Below are positions 15,284-53,745 of a DNA stretch of 64,000 nucleotides, piece by piece. A program made the position numbers and the translations under genes. The notes under the pieces were generated by a model that made no database searches, was not told the DNA's origin, and saw only the letters and a program-made list of their open reading frames with translations. This stretch comes from Desulfovibrio ferrophilus. Its GTDB lineage: Bacteria > Desulfobacterota > Desulfovibrionia > Desulfovibrionales > Desulfovibrionaceae. Every line of letters begins with the position of its first letter. Position 1 is the stretch's first letter. The stretch covers positions 2,562,905 through 2,626,904 of the forward strand of contig NZ_AP017378.1 in NCBI RefSeq assembly GCF_003966735.1, given 5' to 3'.

Positions 15284-18200
15284 ATGCCACGCCCTGTCTC
15301 CCCCTTTAAACCGACCACACAACGCCACTATCTCCTGCTCCATGGCGTGGGGCTGCTACTGCTGTTCCTGATCTTCTGGACGCTCAATCTCTGGACCGAC
15401 CGTCGGGCCGTCATCCGCCATGAGGCCATCTTCAACGAGCAGCAATCCCTTCAGGTACAGCTGGCCGCTCAGGCCATGCACTCGCGCATGAACGAGGTTT
15501 TTTCCGCGCTGGAAATCTACACCCAGTATTCTTTTCCCGAGCTTGAACGCGGGCTGCGAGACGTCTCCTCCATCCAGACCCTGCTGGACACCACCACTGT
15601 CAACATCCCAACCCTGCTTACCCTGGCCTATCTTGATGCCCCGGATTCCATTGTCGCCCAATCGGGCGGCAAGGCTGCAGGAGGAAAAGCGACCCGGCTC
15701 CTTCTCGACTGGTCCGAAAAGTATTGGTCCACCTTTTCAGATGGCCGCGCCCTGCCCCTTGTCCCTCCGCTTCATGCATCCCGGGATATCCAGGCCATGG
15801 GGCTTTTCTACCCCGTCCTGGTTGATGGCAAATTCAGAGGGATTCTCACCGGCATCGTCGATCTGGGCACCGTCATCAGAACACACATCGCCCCATTGCG
15901 CTCTGGCCAGCATGGAGCCGCCTTCATCCTTGGCAGCACAGGGCAGGTTCTGTTCGACCATGAGGCGCAACTCATCGGGCGAAACGTCTTTGACGGGCTC
16001 CACGCCAGTCACCCCGAAGTCCTGGAAATAGATACGCGCATGCTCTCCGAGCCTTCCGGAACCGGAAGTTATTCCTACATCCTGCGCCAAGATGGTCCAC
16101 CCACCCGCAAGCTTGTCGCTTGGCGAACTGCCCACTTTGGCGACCAATCCATCATCATCGCCCTGTCCGCCCCGGACACCGAAGTCAATGCCTCCATGAC
16201 TGCCATTCGCCATGAGCGTCATATCATCGGAGCCCTTTTGCTGCTGTGCCTTGCAGGCATGAGTTTCCTCACCTACCGCAAGGCAGTGCAGCCAGACATC
16301 CAGGCCAGCCACCGACGGCTTCTGGACATAGTCGAATTCCTGCCGGACCCGACGTTCGTCATTGACCATGAAGGTCGGGTTATTGCCTGGAACCGGGCCA
16401 TTGCCGCCATGACCGGCTTCAAGGCCAAAAACATGCTTGGTAAAGGCAATTTTGAATACGCGGTCCCTTTTTACGGAGAACGGCGCCCCGGCCTGATTGA
16501 CCTGGTGGGTAAAGACTACACCGAGCTGATCGGCCGGTATCATTCCGTCACACGTGACGGCCACGCCATTTACGCCGAGACATTCGTCCCCAACGCGTAT
16601 GCAGGCAAAGGCGCTCACGTCTGGGCCACGGCTTCCCAACTTCTGGACAATAACGGCAATGTCGTGGGTGGTATCGAGTCCATCCGCGATATTACGCACC
16701 GCAAGGTTGCAGAGCAGCAAATCCGCGAAAGCGAGGAGCGCTACGCTCTGGCCGTGCAGGGGGCCAACGACGGCATCTGGGACTGGAATCTGGAAACGAG
16801 CAGCATCTATCTGTCCCCGCGCTGCAAGCAGATTCTCGGGTATAGTGACGAGGAATTCGAGAGCATTCCCGGTCACTGGCAATCCCACGTGCATCACGAC
16901 GACGTGGAACAAATCAACAGTGCCGAGGAAGCCGTCATCGAAGGTCGCGAGGACTCCTTTGCCGTGGAATATCGTGTCCGCCGCAGGGATGGCAGTTATC
17001 ACTGGGTCCTGGACAGAGGTACCGGCGTCGTGGATGACGACGGTCAAACCACGCGAATTCTGGGTGCCATCTCAGACATCAACACCCGCAAGGAAAACGA
17101 AACCGTCTCCGCCATCATGTTGGCCATGTCCAGTGCGGTCACCACCACACGAGATCTGAAAACACTCTATGCCGCGGTGCACGCCATTCTCATTGAACAC
17201 ATCGGAGCCGAAACCTTTTATATTGCCCTTGTGGACACGGAACGCGACCTGATCGACTTCGTTTACGCCAAGGACCAGGAACACGGCATCCCCTGGGAGC
17301 CCGTCGCCATCAGTTCCCTGAAGGGGAAAAGCCTGACCCTGGCGGTTTTCAACCAGGCCAAACCCCTGATCATGAACCGTGAGCAGCAGTTGAAATTCGG
17401 CGTCATGGGAGCCCCCGCAGAAGTCTGGATGGGCGTCCCTCTGATCATCAAGGACAAGGTCATCGGCGTGATGGCGGTCAATGATTATGAGGACCCCAAC
17501 CGCTACAGCGAAAAAGATCTGCGCCTGTTGTCTTCAGTCTCCGAACAGGTGGCTCTGGGCATCGAACGCAATATGAATGAGGAGCAGCTCACTCACCAGG
17601 CCCTACATGACGACCTGACGAGCCTGCCCAACAGAGCCCTGTTCATGGAGCGCCTGGGACGAGCCATTCGGCGCTCCGAACGCCGCACGGACTACCGCTT
17701 TGCCGTGGTCATGATGGATCTGGATCGATTCAAGATCATCAACGACAGCCACGGGCACCTGACCGGTGACGAGGTCCTCAAGGAAACGGCCCGACGCATC
17801 GCCCCCGTACTGCGTTCAGTGGACACCCTGGCTCGTCTGGGAGGCGATGAATTCGCCATTCTACTGGAGGAATTCGACAAACCACAGCAGGTCGTTCACA
17901 TCGTGCGCCGCATTCAGGAGTCTGTCTCCGCCTCCATCATGGTGGGAGATCACGAGCTACGCACCACAGCCAGTGTCGGCATCGTCATCAAAACCGAGGA
18001 CTACGCCAGCTCCGAAGAACTGCTGCGGGACTCGGATATCGCCATGTACCAGGCCAAGCAGCAGGGCAAGGGGTTGTTCCGGGTCTTCAACCGCACCATG
18101 CACCTTGCCGCCATGGCGGCCATGGCCCTGGAACACGACCTCGAGCGGGCACTGGCTGCCAGAGAATTCAAACTCCAGTATCAACCGATTTTCGACGCCC

Positions 18201-18892
18201 AAACCAGAGCCCTGAGCGGATTCGAGGCCTTGATCCGTTGGCATCACCCCGAACGCGGTCCGATATCCCCTGCGGAATTCATCCCCGTAGCCGAAGAGAC
18301 AGGCATCATCATCCCCATCGGGCAATGGGTCCTCAAACAGGCCTGCGCCACCATGGCCGAATGGCTCACGCTCCCCGGCTCCAACGAGGGGTTGACCATC
18401 TCGGTCAACCTGTCCGCCAAACAGGCCTCGCACACCAACCTGCTGGCCATGGTGCGCCGGACATTGCACCAGACGAATCTTCCACCTCATCGCCTGAAGC
18501 TGGAACTCACGGAAACCGCTGTCATGGAATCGCCGGACGCTTCGCAGATGATTCTGGAGCGATTGAAAGTTCTGGGGGTGCAGCTGGCCATTGATGACTT
18601 TGGCACCGGCTACTCTTCCCTGTCGCATCTGTCGCGACTGCCCATGGATTCCCTGAAGATCGACCATTCATTCATTGTGGATCTGCTCGAGACCGAGGAA
18701 AACAAGGAAATCGTCAAGGCCATCGTGGTCCTGGCCCAGGCGCTGGAGCTTGAAGTCGTCGCAGAAGGGGTGGAAAATGAAGCTCAACTGGAACAGGTCA
18801 GGCAATTAGGCTGCAACATGGTGCAGGGATTCCACCTGGGCCGGCCCATGGACGAGGTCGACGCCCGGGCTCTGCTGTCTCAGCACTCGTAA
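15284..18892 (+). CDS. dCACHE-PAS-PAS-GAF-GGDEF-EAL cyclic-di-GMP enzyme
   Basis: 1202 residues. TM helix about 18-37, a periplasmic dCACHE sensor (about 40-310), a second TM (about 312-330), two PAS domains (about 340-455 and 485-600), a GAF domain (about 610-770), GGDEF (about 775-935) and EAL (about 950-1195). The cyclase site GGDEF is intact (853-857) and an RxxD product-inhibition site (Arg844-Asp847) sits exactly five residues upstream. The phosphodiesterase motif is EAL at 981-983 (FEALIRWHHPERGP), and the DDFGTGYSSLSHL and LEVVAEGVE motifs are present. It should both make and break c-di-GMP in response to an external ligand. No clear ribosome site precedes the ATG. Dominant activity cannot be told. 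Confidence 0.92.
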   Translation: MPRPVSPFKPTTQRHYLLLHGVGLLLLFLIFWTLNLWTDRRAVIRHEAIFNEQQSLQVQLAAQAMHSRMNEVFSALEIYTQYSFPELERGLRDVSSIQTLLDTTTVNIPTLLTLAYLDAPDSIVAQSGGKAAGGKATRLLLDWSEKYWSTFSDGRALPLVPPLHASRDIQAMGLFYPVLVDGKFRGILTGIVDLGTVIRTHIAPLRSGQHGAAFILGSTGQVLFDHEAQLIGRNVFDGLHASHPEVLEIDTRMLSEPSGTGSYSYILRQDGPPTRKLVAWRTAHFGDQSIIIALSAPDTEVNASMTAIRHERHIIGALLLLCLAGMSFLTYRKAVQPDIQASHRRLLDIVEFLPDPTFVIDHEGRVIAWNRAIAAMTGFKAKNMLGKGNFEYAVPFYGERRPGLIDLVGKDYTELIGRYHSVTRDGHAIYAETFVPNAYAGKGAHVWATASQLLDNNGNVVGGIESIRDITHRKVAEQQIRESEERYALAVQGANDGIWDWNLETSSIYLSPRCKQILGYSDEEFESIPGHWQSHVHHDDVEQINSAEEAVIEGREDSFAVEYRVRRRDGSYHWVLDRGTGVVDDDGQTTRILGAISDINTRKENETVSAIMLAMSSAVTTTRDLKTLYAAVHAILIEHIGAETFYIALVDTERDLIDFVYAKDQEHGIPWEPVAISSLKGKSLTLAVFNQAKPLIMNREQQLKFGVMGAPAEVWMGVPLIIKDKVIGVMAVNDYEDPNRYSEKDLRLLSSVSEQVALGIERNMNEEQLTHQALHDDLTSLPNRALFMERLGRAIRRSERRTDYRFAVVMMDLDRFKIINDSHGHLTGDEVLKETARRIAPVLRSVDTLARLGGDEFAILLEEFDKPQQVVHIVRRIQESVSASIMVGDHELRTTASVGIVIKTEDYASSEELLRDSDIAMYQAKQQGKGLFRVFNRTMHLAAMAAMALEHDLERALAAREFKLQYQPIFDAQTRALSGFEALIRWHHPERGPISPAEFIPVAEETGIIIPIGQWVLKQACATMAEWLTLPGSNEGLTISVNLSAKQASHTNLLAMVRRTLHQTNLPPHRLKLELTETAVMESPDASQMILERLKVLGVQLAIDDFGTGYSSLSHLSRLPMDSLKIDHSFIVDLLETEENKEIVKAIVVLAQALELEVVAEGVENEAQLEQVRQLGCNMVQGFHLGRPMDEVDARALLSQHS

Positions 18893-18899
18893 AGACGCG

Positions 18900-19313
18900 T
18901 CAGCTTCCCCCCTCAATCTCGACGGTCAACGTATTCTGCCCATCCTGGCGCGAATACTCCCAGGCATCCACAAAATTACGCACCAGGTGCAGGCCAAACC
19001 CCCCGTGCTCGTCACCGCTCAGGCCTTCCCGCTGCTCAGCCTCGAACGTCGGATCAAAGGGAACACCCCGGTCCTCGAACATCACACTGACTCCCCGTCC
19101 GCAAACGGTCACCGTCACCCCCACTCCTCGACGCTCGCCCGCAGGCACATGGCGCACCGCGTTGGACAGGATTTCCTCCAGCACCAACTCCAGTACATAT
19201 CTCGCCCGCTCACCAAGGTCATAGGCACTCGTAAAGCCCCTGACCTGCTCGACGCAGTCTGCCAGTGTCTGCCAATCCCGATCCATCTTGAGCGACAGGG
19301 CTGCTTCTGACAT
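18900..19313 (-). CDS. RsbW-like anti-sigma factor kinase (HATPase)
   Basis: 137 residues forming a single GHKL ATPase domain of the RsbW/SpoIIAB type. The N box (EEILSNAVRH), the G1 region (FEDRGVPFDP) and the G2 loop (GFGLHLVRNFVD) are intact. Such kinases phosphorylate a STAS antagonist on Ser and sequester a sigma factor or another partner. The STAS gene lies 23 nt upstream in the same operon, so the two form a partner-switch pair. GGAGAG lies just before ATG. No cognate sigma factor or PP2C phosphatase is in the window. Confidence 0.85.
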   Translation of the reverse strand: MSEAALSLKMDRDWQTLADCVEQVRGFTSAYDLGERARYVLELVLEEILSNAVRHVPAGERRGVGVTVTVCGRGVSVMFEDRGVPFDPTFEAEQREGLSGDEHGGFGLHLVRNFVDAWEYSRQDGQNTLTVEIEGGS

Positions 19314-19336: not shown

Positions 19337-19675
19337 TTAATCAAACAGGGCCATGGCCGCTGGCACGTCTGAAGTCGTTGTCACCATCTTGTCGATACCG
19401 GCGATACGCAGTCCCTCTTCCACCAAGGGCCGGGCAGCGGCCAGAACCAGCTTCGCTCCCTTTTCGTCAAGATTCTTCTGAGCCTCGATGAAAAGACGCA
19501 TGCCCACAGATGCCATGAATTCCACCCCGGACATATCAATCACCGTATTCCTGCCCGCAGAGGTGACTAGACCCTTGAATTCATCAGATGCAGCCTGCAC
19601 CCCTGCCGAATCCATACGACCGGACAAACTGACAAGAACGACATTCCCTGCGCTCTGAACCAGACTGGTTTTCAC
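19337..19675 (-). CDS. STAS-domain anti-sigma factor antagonist
   Basis: 112 residues, GTG start at 19675 with GAGGAGG seven bases upstream. A single STAS domain: VVLVSLSGRMDSAG, then NTVIDMSGVEFMASVGMRLF, which keeps the phosphorylatable Ser of the DxSxVxFxxSxG loop. The unphosphorylated protein would bind the neighbouring RsbW-like kinase and release its target; phosphorylation would reverse this. The cluster is convergent with the c-di-GMP enzyme gene. Confidence 0.85.
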   Translation of the reverse strand: MKTSLVQSAGNVVLVSLSGRMDSAGVQAASDEFKGLVTSAGRNTVIDMSGVEFMASVGMRLFIEAQKNLDEKGAKLVLAAARPLVEEGLRIAGIDKMVTTTSDVPAAMALFD

Positions 19676-40385: not shown

Positions 40386-41288
40386 CTAATAAGGCGGCTG
40401 TCCTTTTTCCTTGCCGAAAACAAAAGGATAAGCCTGAATGGCCTTCAACGTTTCCAGAGTCATGTCATAGGCGGGCAGATCAATGCGCATGCGCTTGTCC
40501 AGCCGGGCTCGAGTCAGTGCATCGGAGACTGTGGGTTGAGCCATGAGCAGATCCTGCAACTCCCCGCTGGCATAGGCCTTGGACAACCCCTGTTCCAATA
40601 TCCGATGAAGCTCATGATGCTCGCGGGACACGAAAAAGAAAATGGCAAAGGGATAGACCACCACAAGCCGCTCTTCCACCGCCAGGGTGGGGTACTCTTC
40701 ACGATAGGACTCATACTCCGGGTAGACCTCGAAAAGCCCACGCGAAAAAAGATCAAAACGCCCCCAGGCCAACATGGGAAACAGATCCCGATATTGTTCT
40801 CCCTGCACCACGGTAAGTCCTGCGTTCTCCAGAATGGGGATATCAGACCAGCCCCGACCCTGCCCCACACTGAACGCCTGCAAATCCTTCAAGGTCTTAA
40901 CCGTGGACAGACGCTGTTGCGAATCCCTGCGAATGAGCATGATCCGGTATCCACTCCCCAGCCCAAGGTAGATGGGGACATGTACGGCAAGCATCTGCTC
41001 CTCGAATCGGGGATTTGTTCCCGCGACAATGGTATACGGATCGCTTGAGTTGATGACCAGATCGGTATTGCTCAATTGCGACGGGGGATAGCGCACCACG
41101 GAGACATTACCGATGTATCCGCTTTTTTTCAGGGCCAACTCAATCAGGGCCTTATAATACCCCTCCACCGGTCCACGTCCTGGCTCCACCAGCAGTGTCA
41201 CATCCTGCGACAGTCCACCACCGGGTAGCGGGTATGCTCCCATCAGGAATGGGACAAGACAGCACAGGATCATTAAACCTTTACCCAT
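40386..41288 (-). CDS. Orphan periplasmic substrate-binding-like protein
   Basis: 300 residues from ATG at 41288, with AGGAGG upstream. Signal peptide MGKGLMILCCLVPFLMGAYPLPGGG. The mature part looks like a type-2 periplasmic binding fold (TLLVEPGRGPVEGYYKALIELALKKSGY, DLVINSSDPYTIVAGTNPRFEEQMLAVHVPIYLG, LFSRGLFEVYPEYESYREEYPTLAVEERLVVVYPFAIFF), as in SBP_bac_3 proteins that feed either transporters or sensor kinases. No transporter or kinase lies next to it in the same operon. Ligand unknown. Confidence 0.65.
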   Translation of the reverse strand: MGKGLMILCCLVPFLMGAYPLPGGGLSQDVTLLVEPGRGPVEGYYKALIELALKKSGYIGNVSVVRYPPSQLSNTDLVINSSDPYTIVAGTNPRFEEQMLAVHVPIYLGLGSGYRIMLIRRDSQQRLSTVKTLKDLQAFSVGQGRGWSDIPILENAGLTVVQGEQYRDLFPMLAWGRFDLFSRGLFEVYPEYESYREEYPTLAVEERLVVVYPFAIFFFVSREHHELHRILEQGLSKAYASGELQDLLMAQPTVSDALTRARLDKRMRIDLPAYDMTLETLKAIQAYPFVFGKEKGQPPY

Positions 41289-41467
41289 CTGTGTCCTCCT
41301 GAATGAGCATTCCAGATAAGACATTATCAGACATTCTTGCCTCTATTCTATGCCACGCCCCGAACTTTCGGTCCAGCATGGGCTCCAAAATCCTACCTGT
41401 TCACGTTGCTGTTGACCTCTCCCTCCTGCTGCCACTATCAGTAATCAATGCCAACAACAAGGAGGCC

Positions 41468-41616: not shown

Positions 41617-41847
41617 CCCAAAACACATCACCAACCAAGGCCCGTCTCGGAAGAGTCGGGCCTTGCTCATGACAAGAAGAACCTTTCGTAGGGGCACTTT
41701 ACGCTCCTTTGATTTATGGATACCAACAAATACAATCAATTACTCCTACAAGTATGAACTGTGAACTGCAGCGTCCAAACTCGAATTCGCAATCTCGCAT
41801 CACACGCACCCCACTCTCCCGGAAATGTGCCAGGAAGGTAGCCTGCA

Positions 41848-43359
41848 ATGCCCGACATCCATGTATCCCCACACCGTATCCCCCTGGGAAGTCTCTCCGT
41901 ACCGGTCCATCTGATTATGGTCAGGCCCACCGTGCAGTTTACCTCACAGATCTCTCACCTGCTGGGCTTCAGCAAAACCGACAGCCAACTTCTCGGCATG
42001 GCTGTGGAAGAAGCCTTCGGGAATGCAATCAGACATTTCTCTGGCCCTGTGGAGGGGGAGGCCATCGACGTGGAATTCTGCGTTCATGAAAATTCGCTGG
42101 TAATCTCCATTCGCGAAAGAGGTATTCCTTTCACCCCACAGCAAGGGCAGCGCTACACTCCCGACGATCTCGAAAACATGGACATGCCCGGACTAGGCAC
42201 ACTGCTCATGCAAAAGGCCGTGGATTCCCTCGAATTTTTGAGCCACGGGCGCAAGGGCAAGGAGACCCGCCTAATCAAGACCATCCCCTATGGGGCGCTG
42301 CCCCAGGAACTGCTGGAGGTCCAGCCTGTGCGGCGCGGGCGCGATCGTCCCACGGTCAAGAACGCCATCGTCCGCCCCGCTACCCGGGAGGAACTCCCTC
42401 ATATCTGCCAGCTGGCTTGGCGCTGCTACGGCTATACCCAGGAAGCCTTTCTCTATGATCTCGAGGCGCTGACCGAAGCATTCGACAAGGGAACCTTCGT
42501 ACCAGTGGTGGCCATCGACCCGGCCAGCAACCAGATGGTCTGGCACGCGGGCCTGAAGATTCATGATCCGAATGTCCCTGTGGGCGAGATGGGGCTGGCT
42601 TTCATCGACCCGGCCTTCCGTTGCCCAGGGGCGACACAACAGATGGCGGACGCCGTCACCGCCATGGCGAAGAAAGCCGGGCATCGTGGAACCTTCGACT
42701 GCTCGGTGACCACCCACACCTTTTCTCAGAAGGCCATGCAGAACTGCTATGGTTCCAGGCCATGCAGCATCATGCTGGCCATTACTGCCTCGGGGATGCA
42801 TGCCAAAGAACTGGCAACGTCGGTCCAACCCAAGGGCTCGGTGGTCAACCATTACCGTGCCTTCGACCGCTCTCCTGCCACGGTGTACGTTCCCGAGCGA
42901 CATAGAACAATGGTCTCCAACATCTACGGCTGGCTTGAATTGCCCCGGGAAATTGGAACCCCAGACACTGAGTACCCTCTGGGCGAATCCAGAGTCAGTG
43001 TCTTCCCGTTGCCCGACGAGCTGAACGTGGTGTTCATCATAGTGCATGCCATCGGACCCGATACAGCGAAAGAGATTGCAGAAGCCTTGCGCCAGTGCAA
43101 ACGCGAGCGACGGGATGCCGTATACGCCTTTCTCCCTTTGGGTGCTCCCGCCAGCCCTATGCTTGTAGAAGAATGCGAAGCACTGGGACTCTCCTTTGCC
43201 GGAGTCATGCCTCATATCCATGATGGTGATGACCGCATGCTCATGCAGCGAGTTGACATCGTACTGGATATGGACACCATCCGTGTCTACGGCGAACAGT
43301 CCAAACAGCTCTTCGATTACATTCAGCGGGAACAGCAGAGAGTCGATCAGGGGGTGTGA
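41848..43359 (+). CDS. RsbW-like HATPase fused to a GNAT-like domain
   Basis: 503 residues. Residues 1-150 are an anti-sigma-type GHKL domain: N box (LLGMAVEEAFGNAIRHF), G1 region (ISIRERGIPFTPQ, with Glu where the usual Asp is) and G2 (MPGLGTLLMQKAVDSLEFLSHGRKGKETRLIK). Residues about 170-325 look like a GNAT acetyltransferase fold (IVRPATREELPHICQLAWRCYGY...GEMGLAFIDPAFRCPGATQQMADAVTAMA). The last 150 residues (NVVFIIVHAIGPDTAKEIAEALRQC...) are a third region I do not recognise. It may combine serine phosphorylation with acetylation or ligand sensing. It precedes the yifB remnant. Confidence 0.75.
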   Translation: MPDIHVSPHRIPLGSLSVPVHLIMVRPTVQFTSQISHLLGFSKTDSQLLGMAVEEAFGNAIRHFSGPVEGEAIDVEFCVHENSLVISIRERGIPFTPQQGQRYTPDDLENMDMPGLGTLLMQKAVDSLEFLSHGRKGKETRLIKTIPYGALPQELLEVQPVRRGRDRPTVKNAIVRPATREELPHICQLAWRCYGYTQEAFLYDLEALTEAFDKGTFVPVVAIDPASNQMVWHAGLKIHDPNVPVGEMGLAFIDPAFRCPGATQQMADAVTAMAKKAGHRGTFDCSVTTHTFSQKAMQNCYGSRPCSIMLAITASGMHAKELATSVQPKGSVVNHYRAFDRSPATVYVPERHRTMVSNIYGWLELPREIGTPDTEYPLGESRVSVFPLPDELNVVFIIVHAIGPDTAKEIAEALRQCKRERRDAVYAFLPLGAPASPMLVEECEALGLSFAGVMPHIHDGDDRMLMQRVDIVLDMDTIRVYGEQSKQLFDYIQREQQRVDQGV

Positions 43360-43398: not shown

Positions 43399-43537
43399 CT
43401 AGAGGGGATTGCGGTCCATGGTGCGATAATTCACGGCTTCGGCCAGTTGCGGCACCCCGATGTGCTCAGCGCCTTCAAGATCGGCAATGGTGCGGGCAAT
43501 GCGCAGAATCCGCGTATAGGCGCGGGCCGACAGGCCA
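43399..43537 (-). pseudogene. Fragment of the yifB/comM 3' end
   Basis: On the minus strand the region encodes [19 protein letters not shown]...[11 protein letters not shown] and a stop, the last 46 codons of a YifB/ComM protein. The upstream part of the gene is absent; the reading frame before it is unrelated. The intact yifB is at 51925-53454. Nucleotides 43427-43537 match its 3' end except at one position; the very last codons differ (RTMDRNPL here, RSLDRGKS there). It marks one edge of the cassette. Confidence 0.85.
43427..43537 (-). repeat. Left copy of the yifB 3'-end direct repeat
   Basis: 111 bp identical to 51953-52063 except one base in GGTGCG(g/a)GCAATG. The copies have the same orientation and are about 8.5 kb apart. 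Identity stops abruptly at CAGGCCA on one side and loses continuity at TAATTCACGG on the other. Confidence 0.95.
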
Positions 43538-51924: not shown

Positions 51925-53454
51925 CTAGGACTTCCCCCGGTCCAGGCTGCGGTAATTCACGGCTTCGGCCAGTTGCGGCACCCCGATGTGCTCAGCGCCT
52001 TCAAGATCGGCAATGGTGCGAGCAATGCGCAGAATCCGCGTATAGGCGCGGGCCGACAGGCCAAGACTGTTCACGGCCTTGCCCAGAAAGTCCTGGCCCC
52101 GCTCACCAGGAGCGCAGTGCTCATCCAACAGCTTGCCCGATAGATCCGCATTGGTGCGCACGGGCAATCCAACGTAGCGATTCGCCTGCACCGTTCGCGC
52201 GGCCTCGATACGCCCACGCATGGACGCCGAATCCGCACCAACACCACTCTGCTTCAAGTCCTGATAAGGCACCGCCGGCACCTCCACATGCAGATCGATT
52301 CGATCAAGCAATGGCCCGGAGATCCTGCTGCGATATTGCCCCACCTGACGCGCCGAACAGGCACAAGCGTGCTTGTTGTCACCAAGATAGCCACACGGGC
52401 AGGGGTTCATGGCCGCCACCAGCATCACATCCGCTGGGTAGGTCAAAGACACTGCCGCCCGCGAGATGGTCACGTGTCCATCTTCCAGGGGCTGACGCAA
52501 CACCTCCAGCACATGCTTCTTGAACTCGGGCAGTTCATCCAGAAACAGCACTCCCCGGTGCGACAGGCTGACCTCGCCGGGGCGGGGATAGGCACCGCCA
52601 CCCACCAGCCCGGGATGGGAAATTGTATGATGCGGGCTGCGGAACGGGCGCGAAACCTTCAGGGATTCGCCATTCAAAAGACCAGCAACGGAATAAATCT
52701 TGGTCACTTCCAGAGCTTCGTCGAACTCCAGAGGAGGCAGCACCGTGGGGATACGCGAGGCCAGCATGGTTTTGCCACTGCCCGGAGGGCCCATGAACAG
52801 CAGGTTATGCCCACCAGCCGCTGCGATCTCGATGGCCCGCTTGGCGTGTTCCTGGCCCTTGACCTCGGAGAAATCCACATGAAACCCGGAGCGGCCTTCC
52901 CACAGCGCCTTCACACCTGGCGCGACGGGCTCCAGTATCAATTCTCCGGTCAACAGGCGGACGACATCAGCCAAAGTCTCGGGCGCGTACACCGCTACGT
53001 CTTCCACCACTGCGGCCTCGGCGGCATTACCCGGAGGCACGATCAAGCCCCTGGCCCCTTGCTCACGGGCCTTCAAGGCCAAGGGAAGAATCCCCGGAAC
53101 GGCCTTGAGCTGACCATCCAACGACAATTCACCCGCCAGCATCCAGCCATCCAGCGCCACCTGCGGTAACACGCCCGAAGCCGCCAGCAGAGCCGCTGCC
53201 AAAGGCAGGTCATAGCCACTGCCTTCCTTGCGCATGTCTGCCGGTGCGAGGTTGACCGTAATCCTTGAGGGGGGAATGCGAAAACCCGAATTCTTGAGCG
53301 CGGTAAAGACACGCTCCTTGGACTCGCGCACTGCGCCCTCGGCCAGACCAACCATGGTGAAGGCTGGCATCCCGGAGCGGGACAGATCGACTTCCAATTC
53401 AACCCGGAAGGCGTCGATACCCAACAGGGCGGCTGTGGACACTTTGGCTAACAC
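51925..53454 (-). CDS. comM: YifB/ComM-family Mg chelatase-like AAA ATPase
   Basis: 509 residues from GTG 53454 (TGGAG upstream), so that the protein starts VLAKVSTAALLGIDAFRVELEVDLSRSGMP. N-terminal ChlI-like domain, then AAA core with Walker A (FMGPPGSGKTMLA), Walker B (GVLFLDELPEF) and a zinc-type Cys cluster (CPCGYLGDNKHACACS). C-terminal Mg-chelatase subdomain ends [31 protein letters not shown]. In competent bacteria ComM is a branch-migration helicase in transformation. The 3' end is duplicated at 43.4 kb. Confidence 0.93.
   Translation of the reverse strand: MLAKVSTAALLGIDAFRVELEVDLSRSGMPAFTMVGLAEGAVRESKERVFTALKNSGFRIPPSRITVNLAPADMRKEGSGYDLPLAAALLAASGVLPQVALDGWMLAGELSLDGQLKAVPGILPLALKAREQGARGLIVPPGNAAEAAVVEDVAVYAPETLADVVRLLTGELILEPVAPGVKALWEGRSGFHVDFSEVKGQEHAKRAIEIAAAGGHNLLFMGPPGSGKTMLASRIPTVLPPLEFDEALEVTKIYSVAGLLNGESLKVSRPFRSPHHTISHPGLVGGGAYPRPGEVSLSHRGVLFLDELPEFKKHVLEVLRQPLEDGHVTISRAAVSLTYPADVMLVAAMNPCPCGYLGDNKHACACSARQVGQYRSRISGPLLDRIDLHVEVPAVPYQDLKQSGVGADSASMRGRIEAARTVQANRYVGLPVRTNADLSGKLLDEHCAPGERGQDFLGKAVNSLGLSARAYTRILRIARTIADLEGAEHIGVPQLAEAVNYRSLDRGKS
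51953..52063 (-). repeat. Right copy of the yifB 3'-end direct repeat
   Basis: Partner of 43427-43537, with 110 of 111 bases identical. This copy lies inside the intact yifB reading frame (residues about 464-500). Confidence 0.95.
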
Positions 53455-53745
53455 GAAAAACTCCAGGGATATCGTTCCATTGGTATCGACTTGCATATCT
53501 GGATTGACGGGTAATCTCAAGGTGAAGACAGAAATGCCGCCCCCCGACAGAATTGGTGTTACAGGCGAAACGTACAGCTCAATGGCAGACCGGCACTTCT
53601 CCACAGTGCATCAATTCAACCCAAGACACCACGAACCCCACGGGTCAATAAACAGCCTCCCAATATTCATGAATGTTCGACAAATTATTTCATCTATTGT
53701 AATCATAAATCTCTCTTTATTATCACCCCTACTAAAGGAGTGCAT

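Follow-up and report, generated by a model that had tools for sequence, protein, structure and literature searches.

The gene at 41848..43359 (+) of the window, the whole 64,000-nucleotide stretch of Desulfovibrio ferrophilus DNA (contig NZ_AP017378.1) analysed here, encodes a protein in which an RsbW/SpoIIAB-like HATPase domain is fused to a GNAT-fold domain and to a C-terminal domain (CTD), and this HATPase-GNAT-CTD protein belongs to an old bacterial family without a name. The architecture, the family, a single old fusion, the gene neighbourhoods and the conservation of residues are directly established. We think it quite possible, if somewhat short of probable, that a partner switch has GNAT-CTD, a module with an acyltransferase fold, as its client and that the kinase-like regulator has been fused onto it. 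This partner-switch reading draws on the operons of unfused relatives and on the fusion itself.

Results

The reading frame starts with ATG and codes for 503 aa. Its likely ribosome-binding site, AGGAAGG at 41832..41838 (+), lies 9 bases 5' of the start codon. On one flank there is a gene for an SBP-like protein (40386-41324, −), and on the other, as the sequence-only reading had noticed, a yifB remnant: a fragment of 43 codons at 43408-43536 (−). An intact yifB is located at 51925-53604 (−), 8.5 kb from the fragment. The fragment is 84% identical to the end of YifB in L033, the locus of the nearest relative, and the intact copy is 69% identical to the L033 YifB. We regard the fragment as what is left of a second copy since lost, or as the mark of a rearrangement. 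The three-part layout proposed for the protein (HATPase, GNAT and a third domain) was borne out by Pfam, by a family profile and by a structure model. No single Pfam or NCBIfam model spans the whole architecture, only the front parts being named. Full-length homologues in single open frames occur in many genomes, so that the fusion is not a product of chance, of assembly or of a frameshift artefact.

The RsbW/SpoIIAB-like domain covers residues ~10-147 (41875..42288, +). In the protein from the window HATPase_c_2 (PF13581) matches residues 26-144 with E 7.7e-15 and 55.5 bits (cut-off 27.4). The best-matching sequence in PDB is that of RsbW (6m36), over residues 33-134. RsbW and SpoIIAB are also found in PDB by the 26-row family profile, and they are the best fold matches to the HATPase part (E 1.2e-6, low-confidence model). 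The RsbW/SpoIIAB equivalog models of NCBIfam stay far under their cut-offs (29.9/145, 24.8/155.05 and 24.7/135 bits). By sequence comparison both N-box residues, E55 and N59, are present (42010..42024, +); they correspond to the catalytic Glu and the Mg-binding Asn of SpoIIAB/RsbW. The G2 glycines G115 and G117 are retained as well. Where G1 has Asp in RsbW, the window's protein does have the Glu reported earlier, E90 in SIRERGIPF (42115..42117, +). A special role for this Glu is not supported: across 69 fused relatives the G1 residue is D in 29, E in 19, S in 10, N in 6 and another residue in 5, and the relative in L034, 54% identical to the window's protein, carries Asp. As family members may have Asp, Ser or Asn in its place, Glu at G1 was rejected as a hallmark.

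In the same 69 fused HATPases E55 is found in 63, N59 in 46 and D126 in 68, and E-N together with D or E in 39. The near constancy of E55 and D126 indicates that the fused domain is under constraint. At the same time N59 is gone in 23/69 and the G1 carboxylate in 21/69, so many of the fusions cannot be ordinary kinases. The small separate kinases encoded in operons have E-N-D in 15/16 cases. Thus the fused HATPase has been free to drop kinase residues in many lines while the fold stayed, a pattern that is expected if binding is more important than phosphorylation. Judged by its residues, the HATPase of the window's protein may still be a kinase.

The GNAT-fold domain (residues ~173-330; 42364..42837, +) is real, as seen with profiles, with a consensus and with a model. 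Taken alone, the window's protein matches PF00583 over residues 185-285 with E 0.015 and 16 bits, under the cut-off of 20.7. The consensus of fused relatives reaches E 8.3e-15 with the same family, and the 26-row full-length profile detects GNATs of known structure at E 1.8e-4 to 7.6e-3 (3lod 1.8e-4, 1s3z 2.3e-4). A structure model of residues 166-503, built from three sequences, has a mean pLDDT of 53, with values of ~60-91 in most of the GNAT region. The GNAT fold anticipated by the sequence-only reading was recovered in this prediction with Z up to 15.8 (5yge_A, 147 residues, 4.7 A); for 3lod Z is 15.7 (141 residues, 2.8 A). The alignments to GNAT structures always cover the first 180 residues of the model, i.e. 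protein residues ~169-345.

Four residues of the GNAT part are near-invariant in 133 rows: E247 (126), R258 (126), H290 (124) and Q294 (131). The last two belong to the family motif V(T/C)xHxx(S/T)Q, which in the window's protein reads H290-T-F-S-Q294 (42715..42729, +). At the position of the CoA P-loop the protein has R258-C-P-G-A-T263 (42619..42636, +), which departs at its final residue from the GNAT consensus Q/R-x-x-G-x-G/A. The full consensus is satisfied in 9/63 fused and 5/70 unfused rows, the shorter Q/R-x-x-G in 44/63 and 38/70, respectively. No conserved Tyr is present at the usual place of the general acid (alignment columns 294-301 of the family). According to passages in PMC4964394, which give this P-loop consensus, atypical P-loops exist in proven GNATs and a Tyr general acid is not universal, being found in 62% of characterised GNATs. 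As few rows conform to the P-loop consensus and the general-acid Tyr is not conserved, CoA binding cannot be taken for granted. The retention of E247, R258, H290 and Q294 makes it likely that GNAT-CTD holds an active site, and it does not assure a textbook acetyl-CoA enzyme.

The CTD (residues ~336-503; 42853..43356, +) matches no named family, and the earlier statement that the third domain could not be assigned stands: in a scan of 136 members, one of them the protein from the window, each Pfam family was hit by two members at most at E<=1. There was no GNAT family in the best 25 of the 39 Pfam families matched, and the CTD consensus matched none either. The CTD profile found no relative in PDB, where the best chain, a designed protein, had E 7.4. 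For residues 382-456 the order beta-beta-alpha-beta-alpha-beta is predicted with low confidence (pLDDT of the CTD mostly <60). This order of strands and helices is reminiscent of the latter half of a GNAT, and hhalign gives a suggestive register between CTD and GNAT, but with a probability of 0.5-0.9%. When the model of residues 166-503 was compared with known structures, none of the chains listed aligned mainly to the CTD, and this gave no evidence of a new fold.

Regarding the distribution of the family, some match was found in 32/59 genomes of near relatives (source genome included), and part of the matching rows was taken into the locus set. In a sample of 395 genomes from the phylum, 110 gave a match to the family profile at E<=1e-15. 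The full fusion is present in at least 36/395 (hand count), a lower bound because at most three candidates per genome were scored at E<=1e-15. The locus set comprises 69 distinct fused relatives and 78 unfused GNAT-CTD genes, with ORFs called mechanically; among the unfused loci those with a HATPase nearby were sampled first, followed by other unfused rows listed. Thirteen 'other' GNAT-CTD ORFs of odd length were kept outside the 69 and 78, and G377:C228, G448:C1:2574069 and the split G099:C260 lie outside the locus sample. The nearest relatives over the full length are those in L033 (a Pseudodesulfovibrio MAG, 58% identity) and L034 (a MAG labelled Muiribacteriota, 54%). A search of plasmids with the window's protein gave no match, scans of viral contigs revealed no relative, and PHROGs gave no match to it; the L037 protein had one weak acetyltransferase match in PHROGs. 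At L133:7567-11790 there is a tandem of four GNAT-CTD genes.

Members come in three forms: fusions (~500 aa), stand-alone GNAT-CTD proteins (~340 aa) and a divergent form (~440 aa). The C-terminal parts of the 16 proteins of the ~440-aa form match GNAT-CTD (hhalign 99.1%, E 1e-18, 279 columns), and these proteins have lost the N-box Asn as well as the G1 Asp. They appear to be degenerate copies of the HATPase-GNAT-CTD layout. A FastTree phylogeny of 134 GNAT-CTD rows (64 fused, 70 unfused) has 3 changes of state. With a midpoint root, 67 unfused rows lie on one side and the 64 fused rows plus 3 unfused ones on the other (support 88). So few changes suggest that fusion was an old and almost unique event. 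Among the three exceptions is L064, where a small HATPase gene immediately precedes the GNAT-CTD gene; this looks like a later split.

The source genome itself encodes three full-length paralogues, the window's gene among them, with 26-30% identity to the query. Their surroundings bring up an explanation that we consider quite improbable, namely that the paralogues serve unrelated local roles in motility or the envelope, one of them behind fliI, and that the window's copy is free-standing with no switch partner left. None of the three paralogues in this genome has a STAS gene nearby. One of them (L036:7797-9431, in G000:C1) stands behind a flagellar run in which Pfam recognises FliF, FliG and a FliI-type ATPase, the gap to the last of these genes being 22 bp, and a fusion paralogue in a genus-mate (L039:7980-9461) likewise follows a flagellar run. 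The closest relative, in L033, is flanked by chemoreceptor genes. However, the flagellar link is seen at 2 loci only, no flagellar gene was found beside the window's copy, and this explanation is silent on the molecular mechanism.

The partner-switch reading is suggested by the neighbours of the unfused relatives. Of 78 unfused GNAT-CTD genes, 10 have a STAS gene no more than 300 bp away, 0.41 being expected from the density in the window's genome (10 matches in 3.72 Mb, one genome); the remaining 68/78 are without STAS inside 300 bp. In L125, L126, L128, L130 and L132, one locus in each of five genomes from five families, GNAT-CTD is followed on one strand by STAS, then by a small HATPase and then by a SpoIIE phosphatase; 4/5 of these operons have an intervening gene for an NMT1-like binding protein. 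In L125 the phosphatase is a dCache-HAMP-SpoIIE (PP2C) protein. Outside the phylum, the Candidatus Thiodictyon plasmid NZ_CP020371 carries a GNAT-CTD gene, annotated 'hypothetical protein', near genes annotated as ATP-binding, SpoIIE and STAS. That unfused relatives often stand beside other parts of a switch suggests that here the switch controls an enzyme and not a transcription factor.

The sequence-only reading had asked whether the fusion co-occurs with STAS proteins elsewhere. This is so for the unfused relatives, it is weak for the fusions and it fails for the window's gene. Within 2 kb a STAS gene accompanies 4/69 fusions (L106, L112, L117 and L124), with 1.08 expected and P 0.02 against a rough background, and L112 and L117 share one clade. 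In L124 the STAS gene near the fusion is followed by a SpoIIE gene. No STAS was found near the 30 fused loci L033-L067, which are mostly from the window's own order. Next to the window's gene there is no STAS, kinase or phosphatase gene, and the nearest STAS is 22 kb away. At the genome level a SpoIIE match is present in 33/36 fusion genomes and in 208/359 others (Fisher P 2.5e-5, hand count, relatedness ignored). It is missing in 3/36 fusion genomes (G267, G335 and G411) and only weak in G271 and G293. Two STAS proteins that adjoin a fusion or GNAT-CTD gene, L106:1583-2800 (−) and L163:6738-7991 (+), continue for ~300 residues of no Pfam family. They were considered as STAS-GNAT-CTD fusions and rejected (hhalign 0.24%).

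If the partner of the HATPase were a sigma factor, GNAT-CTD might have no acyltransferase activity at all. Pfam groups the HATPase with RsbW, the P-loop consensus is rarely met and the Tyr is not kept, and the 16 paralogues of ~440 aa, lacking N-box Asn and G1 Asp, demonstrate that non-catalytic versions exist. We nevertheless consider this improbable. E247, R258, H290 and Q294 are kept over 133 rows in an active-site-like manner, and in many fusions the part that decays is the HATPase. Furthermore, sigma-70 region 2 has 30 matches in the genomes of the five full operons and 0 on the operon contigs; as these contigs are 4 to 81 kb long, the absence is a local statement. In the window, inspection of the 38-48 kb ORFs by eye revealed no sigma gene.

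The RsbW-like/STAS pair previously noticed at 18.9-19.7 kb of the window is real. It consists of an RsbW-like gene (18900-19313, −) and a STAS gene (19337-19675, −), both 22 kb from the fusion gene. A common network of this pair and the fusion, as had been proposed, is not favoured: in a tree the HATPase of the pair groups with 15 partner-type kinases (support 99), apart from the fused domains, and the pair has a more obvious candidate client next to it. This is a large gene at 15284-18892 (+), read by eye as PAS-GGDEF-EAL, which is convergent with the pair and 8 bp apart from it. In view of the cyclase precedents it is no less probable as the client of the pair than the fusion. The pair and the PAS-GGDEF-EAL gene possibly form a switch with c-di-GMP output, by analogy.

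The neighbours of the fusions point to acyl-activating pathways. LuxE and LuxC are found near 5/69 fusions (L042, L051, L124, L191 and L200; by Pfam in L042 and L124), the background being assumed as 1-3 LuxE per 4 Mb genome. ThiF stands beside the fusions in L044 and L119, in L119 together with a carboxyltransferase, and several fusions adjoin MFS genes. Proteins of 1328-1350 aa enclose GNAT-CTD at four loci (L068, L069, L072 and L074). The one that was scanned, from L068, is an AMP-ligase - GNAT-CTD - aromatic amino acid lyase fusion. Further GNAT-CTD genes are adjacent at these four loci, and molybdenum hydroxylase genes occur at three.

We also noticed a recurring orphan cluster composed of molybdenum hydroxylase subunits, an MFS transporter, often a HisC-like aminotransferase, GNAT-CTD and often switch genes. 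It occurs at L062, L068, L069, L072, L125, L126, L128, L129, L132, L134-L136 and L139, and at L204. The Candidatus Thiodictyon plasmid also carries the molybdenum hydroxylase/MFS/HisC-like set with switch genes. On a Salmonella enterica plasmid (L205; CP054717, 105597-116109) genes for LuxE, LuxC/AMP-binding, a PaaK-like ligase and a family GNAT are consecutive; a CTD was not detected on this GNAT, and the row is flanked by recombinase and toxin-antitoxin genes. LuxE/LuxC genes have been reported from flagellin glycosylation islands of Enterobacteriaceae and Aeromonas (passages in PMC4875605 and PMC7874193), and a HATPase-GNAT protein does not figure in those passages.

These neighbourhoods bear on the strongest rival of the switch reading. 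The protein could be a pathway acyltransferase, working in an orphan acyl-activation route, in which the HATPase has left STAS and acts in cis as an allosteric domain, as a nucleotide sensor or in dimerisation. The LuxE/LuxC and ThiF neighbours, the carboxyltransferase, the MFS genes and the AMP-ligase fusion in L068 fit it, as do the decay of kinase residues in many fused HATPases and the 65/69 fusions without STAS inside 2 kb. On the other hand, the unfused half recurs beside STAS, kinase and phosphatase, four fusions adjoin STAS, and the conservation of E55 (63/69) and D126 (68/69) means that the HATPase is constrained. On balance we find this rival rather unlikely, yet worth serious attention.

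Discussion

In the partner switch that we tentatively favour, GNAT-CTD, an acyltransferase-fold enzyme, would replace the sigma factor as client. Upon a signal the phosphatase would dephosphorylate STAS, dephosphorylated STAS would occupy the HATPase, and the activity of GNAT-CTD would be changed as a result of this occupation. In the fusion the HATPase would be tethered to its client. Phosphorylation could be carried out by the tethered domain if E-N-D/E is retained, as here, and otherwise by a separate kinase. We infer STAS binding, kinase competence with a Glu at G1, acyl transfer and the direction of control, as well as the carry-over from the unfused relatives to the window's gene. The presence of HATPase and GNAT-CTD in one protein, kept in 69 fused relatives, argues for a functional link between them.

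A wider proposal, which we put forward with more reserve, is that there may be a class of partner switches with a GNAT-type acyltransferase as client. In this class STAS and PP2C would set acyl transfer in LuxE/AMP-ligase and molybdenum hydroxylase pathways, the old branch would be a switch in cis within one polypeptide, and the CTD would be a new regulatory or acceptor-binding domain. If this is true, a step of acyl transfer is set directly by partner switching. Many Gram-negative genomes have RsbW and STAS pairs that lack a sigma factor, and for few of these pairs is the client known. A concrete candidate client for such pairs can be named from the operons of fixed order, with no sigma-70 gene on the contig, and from the HATPase-GNAT-CTD proteins in one piece. 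Whatever the mechanism, the family and its CTD would make useful new annotation models.

Comparison with known systems

No description of an RsbW-like HATPase fused to GNAT was found in the open-licence PMC literature, and a term search for 'acetyl' gave nothing in the searched text of PMC8256260, a review of STAS-only proteins. The window's protein has in common with RsbW/SpoIIAB (PF13581) the HATPase_c_2 fold, the N-box E and N and the G2 glycines. It differs from them in being fused to GNAT-CTD, in having a Glu at G1 and in lacking an adjacent STAS or sigma gene. An active GNAT beside a second domain is known from the two-GNAT proteins Eis and MshD (passages in PMC4964394), and in this respect the window's protein is similar; unlike their second domain, which is a GNAT, the CTD shows no sequence relation to GNAT.

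Fusions of an RsbW-like domain as such have precedents in TciR of Vogesella (REC-RsbW; sections of PMC12826045) and SypE of Vibrio fischeri (RsbW-REC-PP2C). As far as these accounts go, their targets are unknown or other than sigma factors, and the partner domain is a receiver or PP2C, whereas here it is a GNAT.

The closest parallels to the proposed mechanism are partner switches that act on an enzyme: HsbA-HsbD and SiaABC-SiaD in Pseudomonas aeruginosa and BgrV-BgrR in Sinorhizobium meliloti. Their enzyme clients HsbD, SiaD and BgrR are all diguanylate cyclases, as stated in portions of PMC8457831. A GNAT output would be new for partner switches, since the enzyme outputs known so far are of this one kind. 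In the HsbA, SiaABC and BgrV switches a STAS-type protein, a kinase and a phosphatase act on the enzyme, and the unfused relatives have operons with the same components: genes for STAS, kinase and PP2C phosphatase stand together with that of the candidate enzyme in L125, L126, L128, L130 and L132, though not at the window's gene. What sets the present case apart is a GNAT-fold module as candidate client and, in the family of the window's protein, the fusion of the kinase-like domain to it.
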